Positions 35,053 to 42,964 of a DNA stretch of 64,000 nt are shown here, one piece after another. The position numbers and the translations under genes were made by a program. The stretch spans positions 1,527,289 through 1,591,288 of the forward strand of contig OY282446.1 of NCBI GenBank assembly GCA_958295975.1, written 5' to 3'. Each line of letters starts with the position of its first letter. Positions within the stretch are counted from its first letter, which is position 1. The notes under the pieces were generated by a model. That model worked only from the letters and a program-made list of their open reading frames with translations, ran no database searches and was not told the DNA's origin. The DNA is from Tepidiformaceae bacterium (GTDB lineage Bacteria; Chloroflexota; Dehalococcoidia; Tepidiformales; Tepidiformaceae).

Positions 35053-35787
35053 TCAGCCGCGGTCGATGCCGAGGGCGGCGGCCAGCGGCGCCACCGGGTC
35101 GGCGGCGCGCTCCACCGCTTCCTCGATGGAGCGCTGCCAGAAGCGCCCCAGCGGCGCCAGCTCCTCCGCGTTGAAGCGCCGCTCCTTCATGACGAAGGAA
35201 TCGCGCTCGTAGAACACCGCGTCCACGGGCGGGCCCACGCTGGACGAGCTCGTTTTGGTCGAGTTGAAGGAGAGCAGGCCCGCGCGCAGCGCCTTCTCCA
35301 GCGTGGCGTCGTGGCGCAGCGTGCGGTCGAGGATGGGCTTGCCGTAGGTGGTGTCGCCGATGCTGACGTAGGGCGTGCCGTGCGACACCTCCACCCAGTT
35401 GCCCTGGGGGTAGAGGTGGTAGAGGTGGGGCTCCGCGTCGTCGTCCAGCTGGCCGCCCACGATGCAGTGCAGGTCGAACCAGAGGCCCGCGCGCCTGAGC
35501 CACTCGTTGTCCTCCTCGTGCACGCGGCGCATCTCCTCGGCGAGGGCGTTGACGGCGAGGAAGGCGCGCCCGAAGTCCGCCCCGTTGTGCCGCAGGCGCT
35601 CCCCGAAATAGGTGATGGCCTTGTCGCGCACCGAGCGCAGGCCGCTGGTGAGCACGAAGAGCGCGTGGCGATCGCCCTGGTGCACGGCGATCTTCTTGGC
35701 CGTGGACACCTCCGAGCCCTCCGTGATGCGCGTGTCGGCGATGGCCACGAGGCCGCTCTCGCACTTCATGCCCAGACAGAACGTCAT
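35053..35787 (-). CDS. Anbu-type proteasome-like Ntn hydrolase
   Basis: A 244-residue protein of the ancestral beta subunit (Anbu) group of proteasome-related peptidases. After removal of Met1, Thr2 is the expected nucleophile (MTFCLGMKCESGLVAIADTR). Asp18, Arg20 and Lys31/32 (STAKKIAV) correspond to the usual proteasomal catalytic residues. The C-terminal half is divergent, containing DTTYGKPILDRTL and SSSSVGPPVDAVFYERD. The start codon overlaps the alpha-E gene stop by four bases. Context is the conserved Anbu operon; the peptide ligase-like partner lies two genes upstream. Confidence 0.9.
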   Translation of the reverse strand: MTFCLGMKCESGLVAIADTRITEGSEVSTAKKIAVHQGDRHALFVLTSGLRSVRDKAITYFGERLRHNGADFGRAFLAVNALAEEMRRVHEEDNEWLRRAGLWFDLHCIVGGQLDDDAEPHLYHLYPQGNWVEVSHGTPYVSIGDTTYGKPILDRTLRHDATLEKALRAGLLSFNSTKTSSSSVGPPVDAVFYERDSFVMKERRFNAEELAPLGRFWQRSIEEAVERAADPVAPLAAALGIDRG

Positions 35788-36764
35788 TGGCCGCCCTCCG
35801 CCGCCCCGCCCCGCTCCGGGTGGAACGGGGCCGCGCGGAAGATATCCTCCGTGATGGCGCGGTCAACGTCGATCAGGCGCGCCTGGAAGTCGTCGAGGAA
35901 TTCGTGCAGGCCGTCGTCCACCACCTGCTCGATGTCGCCCGCGTCCAGGTCCAGGTTGAGGATGCCGACGCGGCGCGCGGCCCGTGCGCGGCGGCGCTTC
36001 GGCGTCTCCGCGGCGGCCTGCTGGTAGTGCCGCTGCAGGGCCTGCAGGCAGAAGGCCAGGCTGCGCGGAAAATCGCGCGAGAAGATCAGCAGCTCCGCCA
36101 CCAGCGGCCCCTCCACCTCCCCCCGGCCCGTGCGCTGGTAGGCCTCGCGCGCCGAGGCCGAACGCAGCACCGCGATCCACTGGAAGCGGTCGAAGGAGCC
36201 CCCCACGGCGTCCGCCGGGGGCAGCAGGATGTGGTACTTGGCGTCGACGATGCGGCTCGTCATGTCCGCCCGTTCGAGGTACACGCCGCAGCGGAACCAC
36301 TCGCGCCCCTCGTCGCGCAGCACCGTGTTGTCGAACAGCCCGAGGATGGTGGCCGTGCGCCGCTGCGTCTCCGTGCAGAGCTCGTGCACGTCGCTGGCCA
36401 CGAACTGCTTGCGGTAGGCGAGGAACAGGTAGAGCCCGTTCACCTCCTCCCAGACCTCGCGCGAGATGTACTCGCGCAGCCCGCGCGCCAGCTCGCGCGC
36501 GCGCACGAAGATGGCCCGCAGCGACCCCGGATTGAGCATGGAGAGCAGCAGGAATTCGGACTCGGTCAGCTCGGGCGATTCGGCCCGCGCCGCCGCGAAG
36601 GCCTCGTTCGAGTCGGTGGCGTGGATGAGGCTGTCCCAGATGCCCCCCGCCCCGGCGCCCTCCAGCGAGGCGTCGTGTTCGACCACGGCCATGCGCGCGA
36701 TGTTCTCCGTGCGCTCCACGTAGCGCCCCAGCCAGTACAGGTTCTCGGCCACGCGGCTGAGCAT
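35784..36764 (-). CDS. Alpha-E domain protein (DUF403) of the Anbu operon
   Basis: A 326-residue all-helical protein of the alpha-E superfamily. It begins MLSRVAENLYWLGRYVERTE, the family signature, and includes WEEVNGLYLFLAYRKQFV and LIFSRDFPRSLAFCLQALQ. Its biochemical role is unknown; the family is always found next to circularly permuted ATP-grasp enzymes and often to transglutaminase-like and Anbu genes. ATG overlaps the upstream stop (TGATG) and its own stop overlaps the Anbu start, so the three proteins are stoichiometrically coupled. Confidence 0.9.
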   Translation of the reverse strand: MLSRVAENLYWLGRYVERTENIARMAVVEHDASLEGAGAGGIWDSLIHATDSNEAFAAARAESPELTESEFLLLSMLNPGSLRAIFVRARELARGLREYISREVWEEVNGLYLFLAYRKQFVASDVHELCTETQRRTATILGLFDNTVLRDEGREWFRCGVYLERADMTSRIVDAKYHILLPPADAVGGSFDRFQWIAVLRSASAREAYQRTGRGEVEGPLVAELLIFSRDFPRSLAFCLQALQRHYQQAAAETPKRRRARAARRVGILNLDLDAGDIEQVVDDGLHEFLDDFQARLIDVDRAITEDIFRAAPFHPERGGAAEGGQ

Positions 36765-38221
36765 CAGTCCGTCTCCCCGCCGAGCACCCAGGTGTCCTTG
36801 CTGCCGCCGCCCTGCGAGGAGTTGACCACGTAGGAGCCCTCGCGCAGGGCCACGCGCGTGAGCCCGCCGGGGATCACCCAGGGCTCGTCGGCGGAGAGCA
36901 CGAAGGGGCGCAGGTCCGCGCGCCGCGGCTTCAGCCCCCCGCCCGCGAAGGTGGGGATGGAGCTGAACTCCACGAGCGGCTGCGCGATCCAGTCGCGCGG
37001 CTCGGCCTCGACGCGCGCGAGCGTGGCCGCCAGCTCGGCCTCCGACGCCTGCGGCCCGATGAGCACGCCGTAGCCGCCGGAGGCGTTGGCGGGCTTCAGC
37101 ACCAGCTCGCGCGCGTGGGCGCGGATGTGGTCCAGCTCCGCCGGGATGATCGCCGCGAAGGTCTCCACGTTCGGCAGGATGGCCTCCTCGCCCAGATAGA
37201 AGCGGATGATCTCCGGCGCCCAGCGGTAGACCACCTTGTCGTCGGCCACGCCCGCGCCGGGGGCGTTGGCGAGCGTCACCGTGCCCGCCAGACAGGCGCG
37301 CATCAACCCGGGCACGCCCAGCAGCGAGTCCGGACGGTAGACCAGCGGGTCGAGGAAATCGTCGTCGATGCGGCGGTAGATCACGTCCACCCGCTCCAGC
37401 CCGCTGGTCGAGCGCAGGTAGACGGTGTCGTCGCTGTCCACGAGCAGATCGGAGCCCTCCACCAGCGTGAGCCCCGTGCGCTTGCTCAGGAAGGAGTGCT
37501 CGAAGTAGGCGGAGTTGTAGACGCCGGGCGTGAGCAGCACGGCGCGCGGCTCGCCCGTGCAGGCCGCCGGCCGCGCCGCGAGCAGCGTGGCCAGCAGCTG
37601 GTTCGGGTAGTCGTCCACCGCGCGCACGCGCCGCCGCGGGAAGAGGTCGGGGGCCACGCGCAACATGACCGTGCGGTTCTCCAGCACGTAGGACACGCCC
37701 GAGGGCGTGCGCAGGTTGTCCTCCAGCACCATCATGCCGCCGCGCTCGCCGCGCACGAGGTCGCAGCCCGCCACGTGCGCGTAGACGCCCAGCGGCGGCC
37801 TGAAGCCCGCCATCTCCGGCTTGTAGCCGGGGGAGCCCAGCGCCACCTCGGCGGGGATGATGCGCTCGCGCAGGATGCGCTGCTCGCCGTACAGGTCGAG
37901 CAGGAAGAGGTTGAGCGCCGTGAGCCGCTGCCGCAGCCCCGCGTCGATCGTGCGCCACTCCGCGCCGCTCACGATGCGGGGGATGAGGGAGAAGGGGAAG
38001 ATGCGCTCCGCGCCCTGCTCCTCGGAGTAGACGTTGAAGGTGATGCCCGCGCTCAGGAGCGCCAGGTCGGCGCGCTCCTGCCGCTCCCCGTAGCCCTCGG
38101 CGGACCAGCCCCGCAGGGCCGCCGCCAGCTCGCGGTAGGCGGGCCGCAGCTCCCCCCGCTCGTCGAACATCTCGTCGGGCGTGCCGTAGGTCTCGTAGCC
38201 GTCGAGGATGCCGTGCGCCAT
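36764..38221 (-). CDS. Circularly permuted ATP-grasp protein (DUF404/DUF407)
   Basis: A 485-residue ATP-grasp type 2 protein, thought to form peptide-like bonds. Signature stretches are DEMFDERGELRPAYRELAAA, LALLSAGITFNVYSEEQGAE, PSGVSYVLENRTVMLRVAPD, LLTPGVYNSAYFEHSFLSKR, VLKPANASGGYGVLIGP and VVNSSQGGGSKDTWVL at the C-terminus. It is the first gene of the Anbu operon; its start lies nine bases after TAGAAT. Substrate and product are unknown for the family. Confidence 0.92.
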   Translation of the reverse strand: MAHGILDGYETYGTPDEMFDERGELRPAYRELAAALRGWSAEGYGERQERADLALLSAGITFNVYSEEQGAERIFPFSLIPRIVSGAEWRTIDAGLRQRLTALNLFLLDLYGEQRILRERIIPAEVALGSPGYKPEMAGFRPPLGVYAHVAGCDLVRGERGGMMVLEDNLRTPSGVSYVLENRTVMLRVAPDLFPRRRVRAVDDYPNQLLATLLAARPAACTGEPRAVLLTPGVYNSAYFEHSFLSKRTGLTLVEGSDLLVDSDDTVYLRSTSGLERVDVIYRRIDDDFLDPLVYRPDSLLGVPGLMRACLAGTVTLANAPGAGVADDKVVYRWAPEIIRFYLGEEAILPNVETFAAIIPAELDHIRAHARELVLKPANASGGYGVLIGPQASEAELAATLARVEAEPRDWIAQPLVEFSSIPTFAGGGLKPRRADLRPFVLSADEPWVIPGGLTRVALREGSYVVNSSQGGGSKDTWVLGGETD

Positions 38222-38254: not shown

Positions 38255-38260
38255 TAGAGT
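38255..38260 (+). promoter_or_regulatory. Candidate -10 box TAGAGT for the fusion gene
   Basis: TAGAGT, eight bases before ATG at 38269. Supports the 38269 start over the upstream ATG at 38248, which lies before the box. Confidence 0.45.
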
Positions 38261-38268
38261 GCGCGCCG

Positions 38269-39216
38269 ATGTCGCCGCCCCCGCCGCGCACGCTCACCTG
38301 GGCCGACGTGGACCGTCTGGCGGACGATCTCGTGGCGCGCATCCGGCGCGAATGGGGGCGCGCCGACCCGCCCCTCTGGCCCATCCCGCGCGGCGGCGTG
38401 TTCGTGGCCGCCCTGCTGGCCCCGCGCGGCCTCACGCTCGTGGGCGAGCCCGAAGACGCCGCCCTCGCCATCGACGACATCATCGACAGCGGCGCCACCG
38501 CCGCGCGCGTGGAGCGCGAGCACGGCCTCCGCACCTTCGCCCTGCTCGACCGCCACGCCATCCCCGCCGGGGAGTACTCCTGGGTGGTCTTCCCCTGGGA
38601 GGCCGCCACCGGCGGCTATGGCGCGGACGCGGAGGCGGTGGTCACGCGCATGATCGAGCTGGTGGGCGACGACGCCGCCCGCGACGGCCTGCGCGACACG
38701 CCCGCGCGCGTCGTCGCTGGCTGGCGCGACCAGTTCGCGGGCTACGGCGTCACCGCCGCCGCCATCGACGCCCTGCTCGCCGCCGGAGACGCTCCCGACG
38801 GCGGCGGCGTGGCCGGTCCCGACGCGCCCCTGGCCGTCATCGCGGGCATCCCCTTCCACGCCACCTGCGAGCGCCACCTGCAGCCCTTCCCCGGGCGCGT
38901 CGACGTGGTCTGCGCCCTCGCTGGCCCCGCCCTCGACGGGGACGCCGTGGCCCGCGTCGTGGACGCCCTCGCGCGGCGGCTCACGTGGCGGGAGCGGCTG
39001 GCGCGTGAGCTCGCGGAGGCGCTCTGCCGCGCCCCCGCCGTGGCCGTGGCGGGCGTGCGCGTGATGGCCACGCGCCACTGCCTGCTCGCGCGCGACGAGC
39101 CCGCCGAAAGCGCCCCGCTCGCCGCCTCCGCGGTCGAGGCCAACCGCGCGCGCGTGCGCGACGGCGACCTGCAGGCGCTGCGCGGCGCGGTCGAAGGCGC
39201 GCTCGAGCGCTGCTGA
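38269..39216 (+). CDS. Phosphoribosyltransferase / GTP cyclohydrolase I-like fusion
   Basis: A 315-residue two-domain protein. Residues 10-110 form a phosphoribosyltransferase with loop PIPRGGVFVAALLAP (38-52) and the PRPP motif AIDDIIDSGATA (Asp69-Asp70). Residues about 115-315 resemble GTP cyclohydrolase I: EAVVTRMIELVGDDAARDG, GLRDTPARVVAGWRDQFAGY, ATCERHLQPFPGRVDVV and ATRHCLLARD. By eye, the zinc ligands match (Cys200, His203, Cys271), but the two catalytic histidines of the E. coli enzyme (H112, H179) are replaced by Arg202 and Arg269. It may thus do something other than standard FolE chemistry, or the alignment may be off by one. ATG at 38248 is the alternative start. Confidence 0.75.
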   Translation: MSPPPPRTLTWADVDRLADDLVARIRREWGRADPPLWPIPRGGVFVAALLAPRGLTLVGEPEDAALAIDDIIDSGATAARVEREHGLRTFALLDRHAIPAGEYSWVVFPWEAATGGYGADAEAVVTRMIELVGDDAARDGLRDTPARVVAGWRDQFAGYGVTAAAIDALLAAGDAPDGGGVAGPDAPLAVIAGIPFHATCERHLQPFPGRVDVVCALAGPALDGDAVARVVDALARRLTWRERLARELAEALCRAPAVAVAGVRVMATRHCLLARDEPAESAPLAASAVEANRARVRDGDLQALRGAVEGALERC

Positions 39217-39284: not shown

Positions 39285-41075
39285 CTAACGGGCGTCGACC
39301 CGGTAACGCTGACCCGCGGTGAGGACGGTGAGCGTGTTCACGCCGGGTGGCGCATCGGGGGAGAAGCTGAGCCGGGAGGGCGATGCCGCGTCCCACGTCT
39401 CGACGGCTGCGATCGGGAAATGGCGGAGCGCTTCCTCGACGGGGATGCCGTCGCGCCCTCGCCAGACGATACTGTTCCATCCCGGTTCGAGGTCCAGAAG
39501 AGAGTTGACGGGCCGCCACTCGAGCGCGTCCGGCGGCAGGGGGTAGGCGCGGGTTGGCAACACATTCTGTTCTTCGTCGGTGATGACGATCGAGAGCAGC
39601 TCCCGGCCCGTCAGCGGATCCACTTCGGTGATCGATTCGTCGGGAGGGGGGCTGCGCTCAGGGATGCCCCGCCCCCAACTGATCAGCCAGTTTCCATTGT
39701 CCAGCAATGCAACACGTCCTGCCGCCCATCCAACCTTGTCAAAGGTTCCATGCAACGCATGGTGGCGCTGGAACACCGCTTGCCCGGATTCGATGTCGAT
39801 CGCGTATTCCACCGCTCGGCTGAAGACATCGTTTGTGCGCGCGGTGGTTCCGGTCTCCGGATCGATGGAGCAGGCCACGCCGTTGTCATACAGGACGAGG
39901 TTGCCGTTCGGCCTCAGGTGTGCGGCGTGCTGCCCGCAGAATTCGCCGTATGGGTCCCCCACGATCTTCAGGGGGGCTGGCGATCCGCTGGCGATCCAGT
40001 CCGCGTCGCTGCGGTTGCTCTTGCCCACGCGCCAGACCACGTCCCCGGTCGTTCCGTCGATACGCAGCACTTGCGCGCACCCCCGGAACGAAGCGATGAA
40101 GTCCCCATCGACGACCACCACCGAGTTAAGGTGTGCATAGTCCCACGGGAAGCGGTGTTGTAAACAGTCATCCATCACAGCCATGTGATCCCAGGAGTTC
40201 CACAAGAAAACCTGCTCCCGCTGTGGGGTGATCTCCTGGATGACGGAATCCTCCGTTCCCTCGGTTGTGCTGTACGGGTTGCCGTCCGGGTCGCTGCGTG
40301 AGCTGAAATCGCGCCGGGTGGGCTCGTAGCCCATCAGGACGTAATTCCCGTTCGACTTGATAGCGAAATCGTGATGATCGGTGTGCGTGAGCGGCGGGAC
40401 GACCTGCACGACATCCACTATACTCAGATCCCAGTCGAGCACTACGATCTGGAAATTGGTGAGTTCTGGGAGTTCTTCGCTGAAAGCAGGGATAGTGCCC
40501 GCCCTGCGCGTGTACGAGTACGGATAGAACCCCTCTGGATGGTACTGGAAGTCCTTGCCAAATGATGGCTTACGATGGAAGCGCGGGACGCCATTGGTGT
40601 CGAGAATCCCGAAGAATGGCCCTATCCTTGCCGAGATCAGGATGTCCGAGGCTTCCGCCAACTTCCGCACGGTGATGGTCGGAAAGTCAGGCGGCAGGCA
40701 ATGGACGGTATAGGTGGCGCTGCCCGCGGCGTTCTCGAGCGCGACGACGGTGTCGCTGTCCCCGGACACCCTCAGTTGGACGGCGTCGCCGTTCGAGTGT
40801 ACAACGTCGTTGACCGTCATCTGCGTGTCCGCGTCGTGGGCGGAAAGTGTGAGCGTCAGGATTCCCGAATCGCCACAGCCCACGGCGTAGTGATACGTCT
40901 CGGGGTCGAACGGCGGGTACATCGCCCGCCCCTCGCCCTCCGCCGTGAGCGTGTCCAGCGCTGGCGCGTCCGGCGGCGGGGAGGGGCTCTGGCTGCAGGC
41001 GATGGCCAGCGCGCCAGCCAGCAGGCTCAGGCCCGCGAGGAAGAGACGGAACGGCGAGGCGCTCACGCGCTTCAT
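39285..41075 (-). CDS. Arylsulfotransferase-family lipoprotein, copy 1
   Basis: A 596-residue exported protein with a lipobox ending ALAIAC (Cys27). An N-terminal Ig-like stretch (YAVGCGDSGILTLTLSAHD) precedes the ASST-type beta-propeller. Its motifs are THTDHHDFAIKSNGNYVLM, DYAHLNSVVVVDGDFIASFR, GEFCGQHAAHLRPNGNLVLY and SRAVEYAIDIESGQ. The enzyme family transfers sulfate between phenolic compounds without PAPS, using a catalytic histidine. The C-terminus carries the GWN...W.GRDG module (PGWNSIVWRGRDGIPVEEAL) shared with the large zincins at 50031-55596. It is a tandem duplicate of the next gene. Confidence 0.8.
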   Translation of the reverse strand: MKRVSASPFRLFLAGLSLLAGALAIACSQSPSPPPDAPALDTLTAEGEGRAMYPPFDPETYHYAVGCGDSGILTLTLSAHDADTQMTVNDVVHSNGDAVQLRVSGDSDTVVALENAAGSATYTVHCLPPDFPTITVRKLAEASDILISARIGPFFGILDTNGVPRFHRKPSFGKDFQYHPEGFYPYSYTRRAGTIPAFSEELPELTNFQIVVLDWDLSIVDVVQVVPPLTHTDHHDFAIKSNGNYVLMGYEPTRRDFSSRSDPDGNPYSTTEGTEDSVIQEITPQREQVFLWNSWDHMAVMDDCLQHRFPWDYAHLNSVVVVDGDFIASFRGCAQVLRIDGTTGDVVWRVGKSNRSDADWIASGSPAPLKIVGDPYGEFCGQHAAHLRPNGNLVLYDNGVACSIDPETGTTARTNDVFSRAVEYAIDIESGQAVFQRHHALHGTFDKVGWAAGRVALLDNGNWLISWGRGIPERSPPPDESITEVDPLTGRELLSIVITDEEQNVLPTRAYPLPPDALEWRPVNSLLDLEPGWNSIVWRGRDGIPVEEALRHFPIAAVETWDAASPSRLSFSPDAPPGVNTLTVLTAGQRYRVDAR

Positions 41076-41122
41076 TCTGCCGCTTCCCGCGATTGCCGCA
41101 AGCGCCAGGGGTGGCCGCGGAG

Positions 41123-42898
41123 CTAACGGGCGTCGACCCGGTAGCGCTGGCCCGCGGTGAGGACGGTGAGCGTGTTCACGCCGGGCGGCGCATCGGGGGA
41201 GAATCTGAGCAGGGAGGGCGCGTCCCACGTCTCGATGGCTGCGATCGGGAACTGGTGGAGCGCTTCCTCGACGGGGATGCCGTCGCGCCCCCGCCAGACG
41301 ATGCGGTTCCACCCCGGCTCGAGGTGCAGAAGAGAGTTGACGGGCCGCCACTCGAGCGCGTCCGGCGGCAGGGGGTAGGCACGGGTTGCCAACACATTCT
41401 GTTCCCCGTCGGTGATGACGATCGAGAGCAGCTCCCGGCCCGTCAGCGGGTCCACCTCGGTGATCGATTCGTCGGGATGGGGGGAGCCCCGCCCCCAGCT
41501 GACCAGCCAGTTTCCGTTGTCCAGCAATGCGACATGCCCTTCCGCGTACCCCGCTCTGTCAAAGGTTCCATGCAACGCATGGTGACGCTGGAACACCGCT
41601 TGCCCGGATGCGGTATCGATCGCGTATTCCACCGCCCGGCTGAAGATGCCGCCTGTGCGCGCGCTGGTTCCGGTCTCCGGATCGATGGAGCAGTGCACGC
41701 CGTTGTCATAGAGGACGAGGTTGCCGTTCGGCCGCAGGTGCGCGGCGTGCTGCCCGCAGAATTCGCCGTACGGGTCCCCCACGATCTTCAGGGGGGCTGG
41801 CGATCCGCTGGCGATCCAGTCCGCGTCGCTGCGGTGGCTCTTGCCCAGGCGCCAGATCACGTCTCCGGTCGTTCCGTCGATACGCAGCACTTGCGCGCAC
41901 CCCCGGAACGAAGCGATGAAGTCCCCATCGACGATATTCACCGAGTTAAGGTGTGCATAGCCCCACGGGAAGTGATGTTGTAAACAGTCATCCATTACGG
42001 CCATGTGATCCCAGGAATTCCACAAGAAAACCTGCTCGCGCTGTGGGGTGATTTCCTGGATGACGGAATCAGCCGTTCCCTCGGTCGTGCTGTACGGGTT
42101 GCCGTCCGGGTCGCGACGTGAGCTGAAATCGCGCCGGGTGGGCTCGTAGGCCATCAGGACGTAATTCCCGTTCGCCTTGATATCGAAATCGTGATTATCG
42201 GTGTGCGTGAGCGGCGGGACGACCTGCACGACGTCCACGATGCTCAGGTCCCAGTCGAGCACTACGACCTGGAAATTGATGAGTTCTGGTCTTTCTTCGC
42301 TGGAAGTAGGGATAATGCCCTCCTTGCGCGTGTACGAGTACGGATAGAGCCCCTCCGGGTGGTATTGGAAGTTCTTGCGAAAATTTGGTGGCTTACGATG
42401 GAAGCGCGGGACGCCATTGGTGTCGAGAATCCCGATGAATGGCCCCATCCTTGCCGAGATCAGGATGTCCGAGGCCCCCGCTGACTTCCGCACGGTGACG
42501 GTCGGAAAGTCAGGCGGCAGGCAATGGACGGTATAGGTGGCGCTGCCCGCGGCGTTCTCGAGCGCGACGACGGTGTCGCTGTCCCCGGACACCCTCAGTT
42601 GGACGGCGTCGCCGTTCGGGTGCACGACGTCGTTGACCGTCACGCGCGTGTCCGCGGCGTGGGCGGAAAGGGTGAGCGTCAGTGTCCCCGAATCGCCACA
42701 GCCCACGGCGTAATGATACGTCTCGGGGTCGAACGGCGGGTACATCGCCCGCCCCTCGCCCTCCGCCGTGAGCGTGTCCAGCGTCGGCGCGCCCGGCGTC
42801 GGTGGGGGGGATGCCTGGCAGGCGATGGCCAGCGCGCCAGCCAGCAGGCCCAGGCACGCGAGGAAGAGGCGGGACGCCCAAGCGCGCATGCGCCCCAT
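41123..42898 (-). CDS. Arylsulfotransferase-family lipoprotein, copy 2
   Basis: A 591-residue paralogue of the gene downstream. Lipobox cysteine is again Cys27 (LAIACQASPP). All propeller motifs of copy 1 are retained (DNHDFDIKANGNYVLMAYEP; GYAHLNSVNIVDGDFIASFR; GQHAAHLRPNGNLVLYDNG). The C-terminal GWN...GRDG module is present. Start 42898 is chosen because it aligns with the start of copy 1; ATG 42889 is the alternative. Whether both act on the same sulfate donor and acceptor is unknown. Confidence 0.8.
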   Translation of the reverse strand: MGRMRAWASRLFLACLGLLAGALAIACQASPPPTPGAPTLDTLTAEGEGRAMYPPFDPETYHYAVGCGDSGTLTLTLSAHAADTRVTVNDVVHPNGDAVQLRVSGDSDTVVALENAAGSATYTVHCLPPDFPTVTVRKSAGASDILISARMGPFIGILDTNGVPRFHRKPPNFRKNFQYHPEGLYPYSYTRKEGIIPTSSEERPELINFQVVVLDWDLSIVDVVQVVPPLTHTDNHDFDIKANGNYVLMAYEPTRRDFSSRRDPDGNPYSTTEGTADSVIQEITPQREQVFLWNSWDHMAVMDDCLQHHFPWGYAHLNSVNIVDGDFIASFRGCAQVLRIDGTTGDVIWRLGKSHRSDADWIASGSPAPLKIVGDPYGEFCGQHAAHLRPNGNLVLYDNGVHCSIDPETGTSARTGGIFSRAVEYAIDTASGQAVFQRHHALHGTFDRAGYAEGHVALLDNGNWLVSWGRGSPHPDESITEVDPLTGRELLSIVITDGEQNVLATRAYPLPPDALEWRPVNSLLHLEPGWNRIVWRGRDGIPVEEALHQFPIAAIETWDAPSLLRFSPDAPPGVNTLTVLTAGQRYRVDAR

Positions 42899-42964
42899 TC
42901 TGCCAATTCCCGCGCCTGCCGCAAGCGCCGGGCGGGCGCCCTCCACGCTGGCGTCCCCCGCGCG

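Follow-up and report, generated by a model that had tools for sequence, protein, structure and literature searches.

A chromosomal phosphoribosyltransferase-FolE fusion with a rebuilt cyclohydrolase site, related to fusions of viral 7-deazaguanine operons

A single open frame in a Tepidiformaceae chromosome raises the question of what a protein can do when it joins a phosphoribosyltransferase (PRTase) to a domain with the fold of GTP cyclohydrolase I (FolE) in which presumed catalytic residues are replaced. The frame was analysed within a stretch of 64,000 nucleotides, hereafter the window. Because the window has 72% GC and long antisense ORFs overlap positions 38269-39216, the open frame alone is no proof of a gene there. 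The gene is nevertheless real: its product matches the FolE family of Pfam (PF01227), relatives of this 315-residue protein align across its full length, its codon use is that of a gene of this genome, and a TAGAGT element precedes the start (Table 1). The gene has a GC3 of 0.96 and the synonymous codon use of most neighbours; GC1 (0.84) and GC2 (0.57) are both high. Elements of the form TAnnnT also occur 6-9 nt before the likely starts of seven other ORFs of the window (2625, 3341, 11131, 22196, 31624, 60432, and 38221), a spacing that suggests that leaderless transcription is common in the source genome.

Table 1. Features of the fusion gene and its product, in window coordinates
Feature	Position	Strand	Basis or remark
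PRTase-FolE fusion CDS (P0001, the window protein)	38269..39216	+	Open frame, 315 aa; host-like codon use
Alternative in-frame ATG	38248	+	Less likely start of the CDS
TAGAGT, putative -10 element, leaderless type	38255..38260	+	8 nt 5' of ATG 38269; inferred
XGPRT-type phosphoribosyltransferase domain, residues 1-112	38269..38604	+	AF2 pLDDT 93.5; Foldseek 4jls E 6e-6; VIA Z 11.4; profile matches to XGPRTs 5e-9 to 1e-7
PRGG, residues 40-43, pyrophosphate-loop equivalent	38386..38397	+	Kept in nearly all fusions; aligns with SRGG/ARGG of XGPRTs
AIDDIIDSGATA, residues 67-78, PRPP/5'-phosphate binding motif	38467..38502	+	Alignments with fusions and XGPRT profile alignment
WVVFPWE, residues 105-111, counterpart of XGPRT base-binding W..PW(D/E)	38581..38601	+	Fusion alignment and XGPRT profile alignment
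FolE-fold domain, residues 116-315	38614..39213	+	Pfam PF01227; VIA Z 19.9 to 1wm9 over model residues 116-314
CERH, residues 200-203	38866..38877	+	Zinc ligands Cys200 and His203 kept; Arg202 in place of catalytic H112
DGDA, residues 223-226, replacing GLSK	38935..38946	+	S135 and K136 lost (Asp225, Ala226)
TWRE, residues 239-242, replacing QVQE	38983..38994	+	Q149 and Q151 lost (Thr239, Arg241); E152 kept
R269-H270-C271	39073..39081	+	Arg269 opposite H179 in the ungapped alignment, with His270 beside it; zinc ligand Cys271

The initial annotation had read the protein as a PRTase joined to a FolE-like domain, and the PF01227 match (76.1 bits for a cut-off of 27, residues 122-289), the AlphaFold2 models and the profile matches to XGPRTs all bear this out. 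The N-terminal domain scores 13.1 bits with the Pfam Pribosyltran profile, under the cut-off of 26.3. When it is modelled alone (pLDDT 93.5), its best folds are the XGPRTs of E. coli and Yersinia (VIA Z 11.4, rmsd 2.9 over 107 residues), and model and profile together place it among type I PRTases with the fold of XGPRTs. The PRPP motif, the pyrophosphate loop, and the base-binding W..PW(D/E) are all present. With E. coli Gpt, an XGPRT, the window protein thus shares the fold (Z about 11) and the PRGG, DDIIDSG, and W..PWE motifs, and differs from it by the fusion to FolE and by the absence, in profile alignments with XGPRTs, of about 22 residues that follow the PRGG helix and precede the PRPP motif, at the position of the mobile loop of Gpt. 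This region of XGPRTs is the site of the mobile catalytic loop that covers the active site, and the gap is a trait of the whole fusion family. The gap weakens the proposal that the protein is a guanine or xanthine salvage PRTase, with the N-terminal half alone active and the FolE half a scaffold. XGPRTs are the closest folds, and the near-invariant PRTase positions, defined on 126 other fusions, are kept 12/12 both in the window protein and in its chromosomal relative L180 (see following), as salvage would predict. Without the loop this explanation seems rather improbable.

The C-terminal half has the FolE fold. The AlphaFold2 model of the whole protein (pLDDT 92.4, pTM 0.84) aligns with Thermus FolE (1wm9) over 180 residues, with a VIA Z of 19.9. 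The domain resembles GTP cyclohydrolase I (E. coli FolE, Thermus 1wm9, and M. tuberculosis 9p8z) in its fold, in its three zinc ligands, in the Glu after the first Cys, and in the counterparts of R139 and E152, two residues that presumably recognise the purine. Cys200, His203, and Cys271, which had been proposed as zinc ligands, indeed align with E. coli C110, H113, and C181. In contrast to FolE, the window protein carries the extra PRTase domain, scores 57.9 bits with the NCBIfam equivalog TIGR00063, under its cut-off of 181.6, and shows the changes H112R, S135D, K136A, Q149T, Q151R, and, in the ungapped alignment, H179R (E. coli numbers), R185 being kept. We take H112 and H179 to be the catalytic residues of FolE and S135, K136, and Q151 to be contacts of the triphosphate or the base. 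The initial annotation had rested on the replacement of both histidines by arginine. This holds for Arg202, which lies at the H112 position, is common to L180, and is unique to this pair. It is less secure for Arg269, which is lineage-specific and falls on the H179 position in the ungapped alignment only (A-T-R-H-C in the window protein against A-S-H-L-C in L180), where a pair of one-residue indels would restore a histidine; His270, beside it, could by its position take the role of H179. The changes also extend well beyond the two histidines to which they had been limited. With the 126 other distinct fusions as reference, 16 of 35 near-invariant FolE positions are lost and 19 kept, versus none of 12 lost in the PRTase domain; with an earlier set of 76 fusions, 23/41 FolE positions were kept versus 14/14 PRTase positions (Fisher p 0.002).

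Among the 126 fusions, H112, H179, S135, Q151, and R185 are found in all 126, K136 in 124, and Q149 in 125. Since the residues lost from the window protein are the GTP-specific catalytic and triphosphate-binding ones, its FolE half very probably makes no dihydroneopterin triphosphate any more. One may still suppose that this product, or a ring-opened intermediate, is made with the help of Arg202, His270, or neighbouring subunits. H179 mutants of E. coli FolE were reported to stop at the ring-opened formamide, and the fold, the zinc ligands, E152, and a histidine adjoining the H179 position are all there. However, H112, S135, K136, Q149, and Q151 are gone, though (nearly) invariant in 126 relatives, and the genome already has an ordinary FolE, which makes such an activity highly improbable.

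The fusion is real, as initially annotated, but it is no one-off: the database survey for the same domain pair found these 126 other distinct fusions, nearly all of them viral and all with a canonical FolE active site. The sequence CEHH is present in 153 of 156 fusion entries, CERH being limited among the 156 to the window protein and L180. Viral fusions such as those of Pseudomonas phage PaMx25/NP1, Vibrio phage VpKK5, and Sphingomonas phage MMDA13 have the same domain pair in the same order, a similar length, and 23-38% identity (A7 set) with the window protein; they differ from it by their complete FolE active site and by lying mostly beside QueC, QueD, QueE, and DpdA. The viral-type loci (L001, L002, L025-L029, L032, L034-L039, L098-L175, and L189-L266) have an XGPRT-like PRTase without the mobile loop. 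Among INPHARED phage records, 34 have the domain pair, versus 393 in which a phage fusion finds a FolE-like match. The fusion is also found in a plasmid and a chromosome of Sinorhizobium, in MAG contigs of several phyla, and in many IMG/VR contigs.

Most fusions lie in QueE-QueC-QueD-fusion-DpdA operons, for 7-deazaguanine DNA modification. In a first set of 76 loci, the fetched stretch contains DpdA in 71, QueE in 73, QueC in 71, and QueD in 69; a second set, of 78 loci and in part shared with the first, gives 66, 73, 53, and 70, respectively. These neighbourhoods place the fusion in the pathway of 7-deazaguanine DNA modification that was described by Hutinet et al. 2019 (PMC6884629), a paper that treats phage FolE as an ordinary family member and whose main text does not contain the term "phosphoribosyl". 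Annotated fusion records bear the name GTP cyclohydrolase only, and the open-access literature searched yielded no description of a PRTase-FolE fusion, an absence that does not prove novelty. The fusion thus appears to be a recurring, unrecognised component of viral DNA-modification operons. DpdA presumably puts preQ0 into DNA through an exchange of bases in which guanine is swapped out. This exchange should release guanine. A guanine-type PRTase joined to the first enzyme of preQ0 synthesis therefore points either to the recycling of guanine, with the PRTase making GMP, or to feedback control of preQ0 synthesis. This would be the natural reading of the viral operons, it can be tested in laboratory phages, and the missing PRTase loop favours control over recycling. 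The linkage of base salvage to ring opening, put forward for the window protein, is not a plausible reading of this copy, which has lost S135, K136, Q149, Q151, and H112, has no QueC in its genome, and has a PRTase without the mobile loop. It is plausible for the 126 canonical viral fusions, because the adjoining DpdA swaps guanine for preQ0.

Some loci depart from the common arrangement. The fusion is broken in two in viral contig L003 (4902-6351): PRTase and FolE have an ORF each, and the FolE half is fronted by an HNH-like segment, as though a homing endonuclease had inserted between the two domains. In Sinorhizobium (L028, 5411-8878, and L036), QueD, PRTase-FolE, QueE, and QueC lie together and the fetched stretch has no DpdA match; preQ0 may be made there for another purpose, or DpdA may lie elsewhere. 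L082 and L083 were considered as partial fusions and rejected, as each is a stand-alone FolE in the frame read.

The second CERH member, L180, was found with a profile of the N-terminal domain in a genome of the same class and a different family (G180). It is a chromosomal fusion with 45% identity to the window protein over the full length. The two share H112R within CERH, the loss of K136, Q149T, the zinc ligands, and E152; each is a chromosomal singleton in a genome that has a separate canonical FolE (about 255 bits) and where genome searches detected no QueC. The ordinary FolE of the window's genome lies at G000:C1:1218759-1219334. L180 differs by keeping H179, S135, and Q151, by having no aligned R185, by a 5-residue insert near 215-220, and by its other neighbours. 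The window copy is the more changed of the two. In a quick, midpoint-rooted tree, they form one group (SH-aLRT 100) with long branches, outside all other fusions. The CERH group numbers these two members in the genomes searched. Neither the rest of the window's own 38-genome family nor the other 19 genomes of the family/order of G180 yielded a copy of the fusion gene; a sample of 400 genomes of the phylum gave no further CERH fusion, one of 393 genomes of the class gave L180 only, with weaker matches that were short, and the DNA pattern for TCERHxQPF had 0 matches in viral contigs.

The comparison of the two genes also bears on whether the window copy is a decaying viral relic without function. 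Identical codons are used at 74 of the 113 shared residues with a synonymous choice, versus 66.9 +/- 5.0 expected if the choices were independent, whereas second codon positions differ at 0.404, versus 0.749 when shuffled, a contrast that holds in both domains (0.35 and 0.40). Saturated synonymous sites together with held amino-acid positions indicate purifying selection over most of the divergence between the window gene and L180, a pattern also compatible with constraint on the window copy having been lost very recently. To judge from the codon positions, the remodelled fusion protein has been under selection and is not a decaying relic. Decay would fit with the absence of the gene from the rest of the 38-genome family, with the many active-site residues lost, and with the high GC1 and GC2 (0.84 and 0.57), which could mean weakened constraint. 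Yet H112R is common to a distant genome, both domains combine synonymous saturation with conservation at second codon positions, there is no frameshift, and the -10 element is of the host type. The L180 comparison and the codon-position test thus led to the rejection of decay as the main reading, and it is very unlikely.

The genomic context of the pair is unlike that of the viral fusions. There is no QueC, QueD, QueE, DpdA, or other pathway gene in the 64-kb window or around L180, the sole PTPS match of the window genome lies about 229 kb from the fusion, and the two loci have no neighbours in common. In the window, the neighbours of the fusion belong to ordinary chromosomal families. A prophage was considered and rejected, given these neighbours, the absence of tRNA in the window, and the absence of PHROG matches for the four neighbours tested; anti-phage defence was rejected likewise, there being no PADLOC match.

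The reading that we favour, with a probability of about 0.45, is that the window protein is a chromosomal offshoot of a viral-operon PRTase-FolE enzyme, that its FolE half has ceased to act as a GTP cyclohydrolase, and that it is most likely a zinc-stabilised ligand-binding protein with a regulatory role. The ligand of the PRTase domain would be a guanine nucleotide or PRPP. The FolE half, which keeps its fold and zinc ligands in a protein under selection, would act as a scaffold for oligomers and may join with the FolE of the host, an enzyme whose active sites form between subunits. We infer a viral origin of the lineage of the window protein and L180; the midpoint-rooted tree, which puts the pair outside the other fusions, lends it no support. 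Further points weigh on the regulatory reading. The group has few members, two, both with long branches; the loss is not uniform, as the L180 sequence still has H179, S135, and Q151; and a new zinc-dependent reaction would account just as well for the retention of the zinc ligands and E152. In that case the substrate of the FolE half would be a purine or pterin without triphosphate (e.g., guanine, GMP, or a nucleoside), with the base supplied or removed by the PRTase half. The retention of the zinc ligands, the neighbouring Glu, R139, and E152 in both members, the loss of the triphosphate-binding residues, and the selection on both domains are consistent with such an enzyme. One would expect members with one common new reaction to agree at H179, S135, Q151, and R185, where they differ, and there are neither pathway neighbours nor common neighbours at the two loci; the explanation is unlikely. 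It is less probable still that the protein is a domesticated viral-operon enzyme turned into a two-domain purine protein of a new kind, in which a FolE-type zinc site without the triphosphate and H112 machinery works together with a loop-less XGPRT-type domain in a reaction on a guanine species without triphosphate. Of the two options offered by the initial annotation, the regulatory zinc protein agrees with the evidence more closely than the new reaction does.

The result of wider bearing is the unrecognised viral fusion family. In the window copy and in L180, such a protein has settled in the chromosome, with the PRTase half held constant and the cyclohydrolase site rebuilt; the two offer a set of natural mutants with which the role of the fused domain can be studied. 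GFRP is a regulator of FolE in animals. If the CERH pair regulates the host FolE, it would be, in principle, a bacterial counterpart.

Two features of the surroundings of the fusion gene can be added. On one side (35053-38221), genes for a proteasome-like protease, an Alpha-E protein, and a circularly permuted ATP-grasp protein adjoin it in divergent orientation, and are unlinked to the fusion at L180. On the other (39285-42946), there are two tandem arylsulfotransferase-like genes with repeat blocks 86-94% identical and a GC3 of about 0.80-0.82, versus 0.94-0.99 in the other neighbours, which probably reflects a recent duplication of foreign genes.
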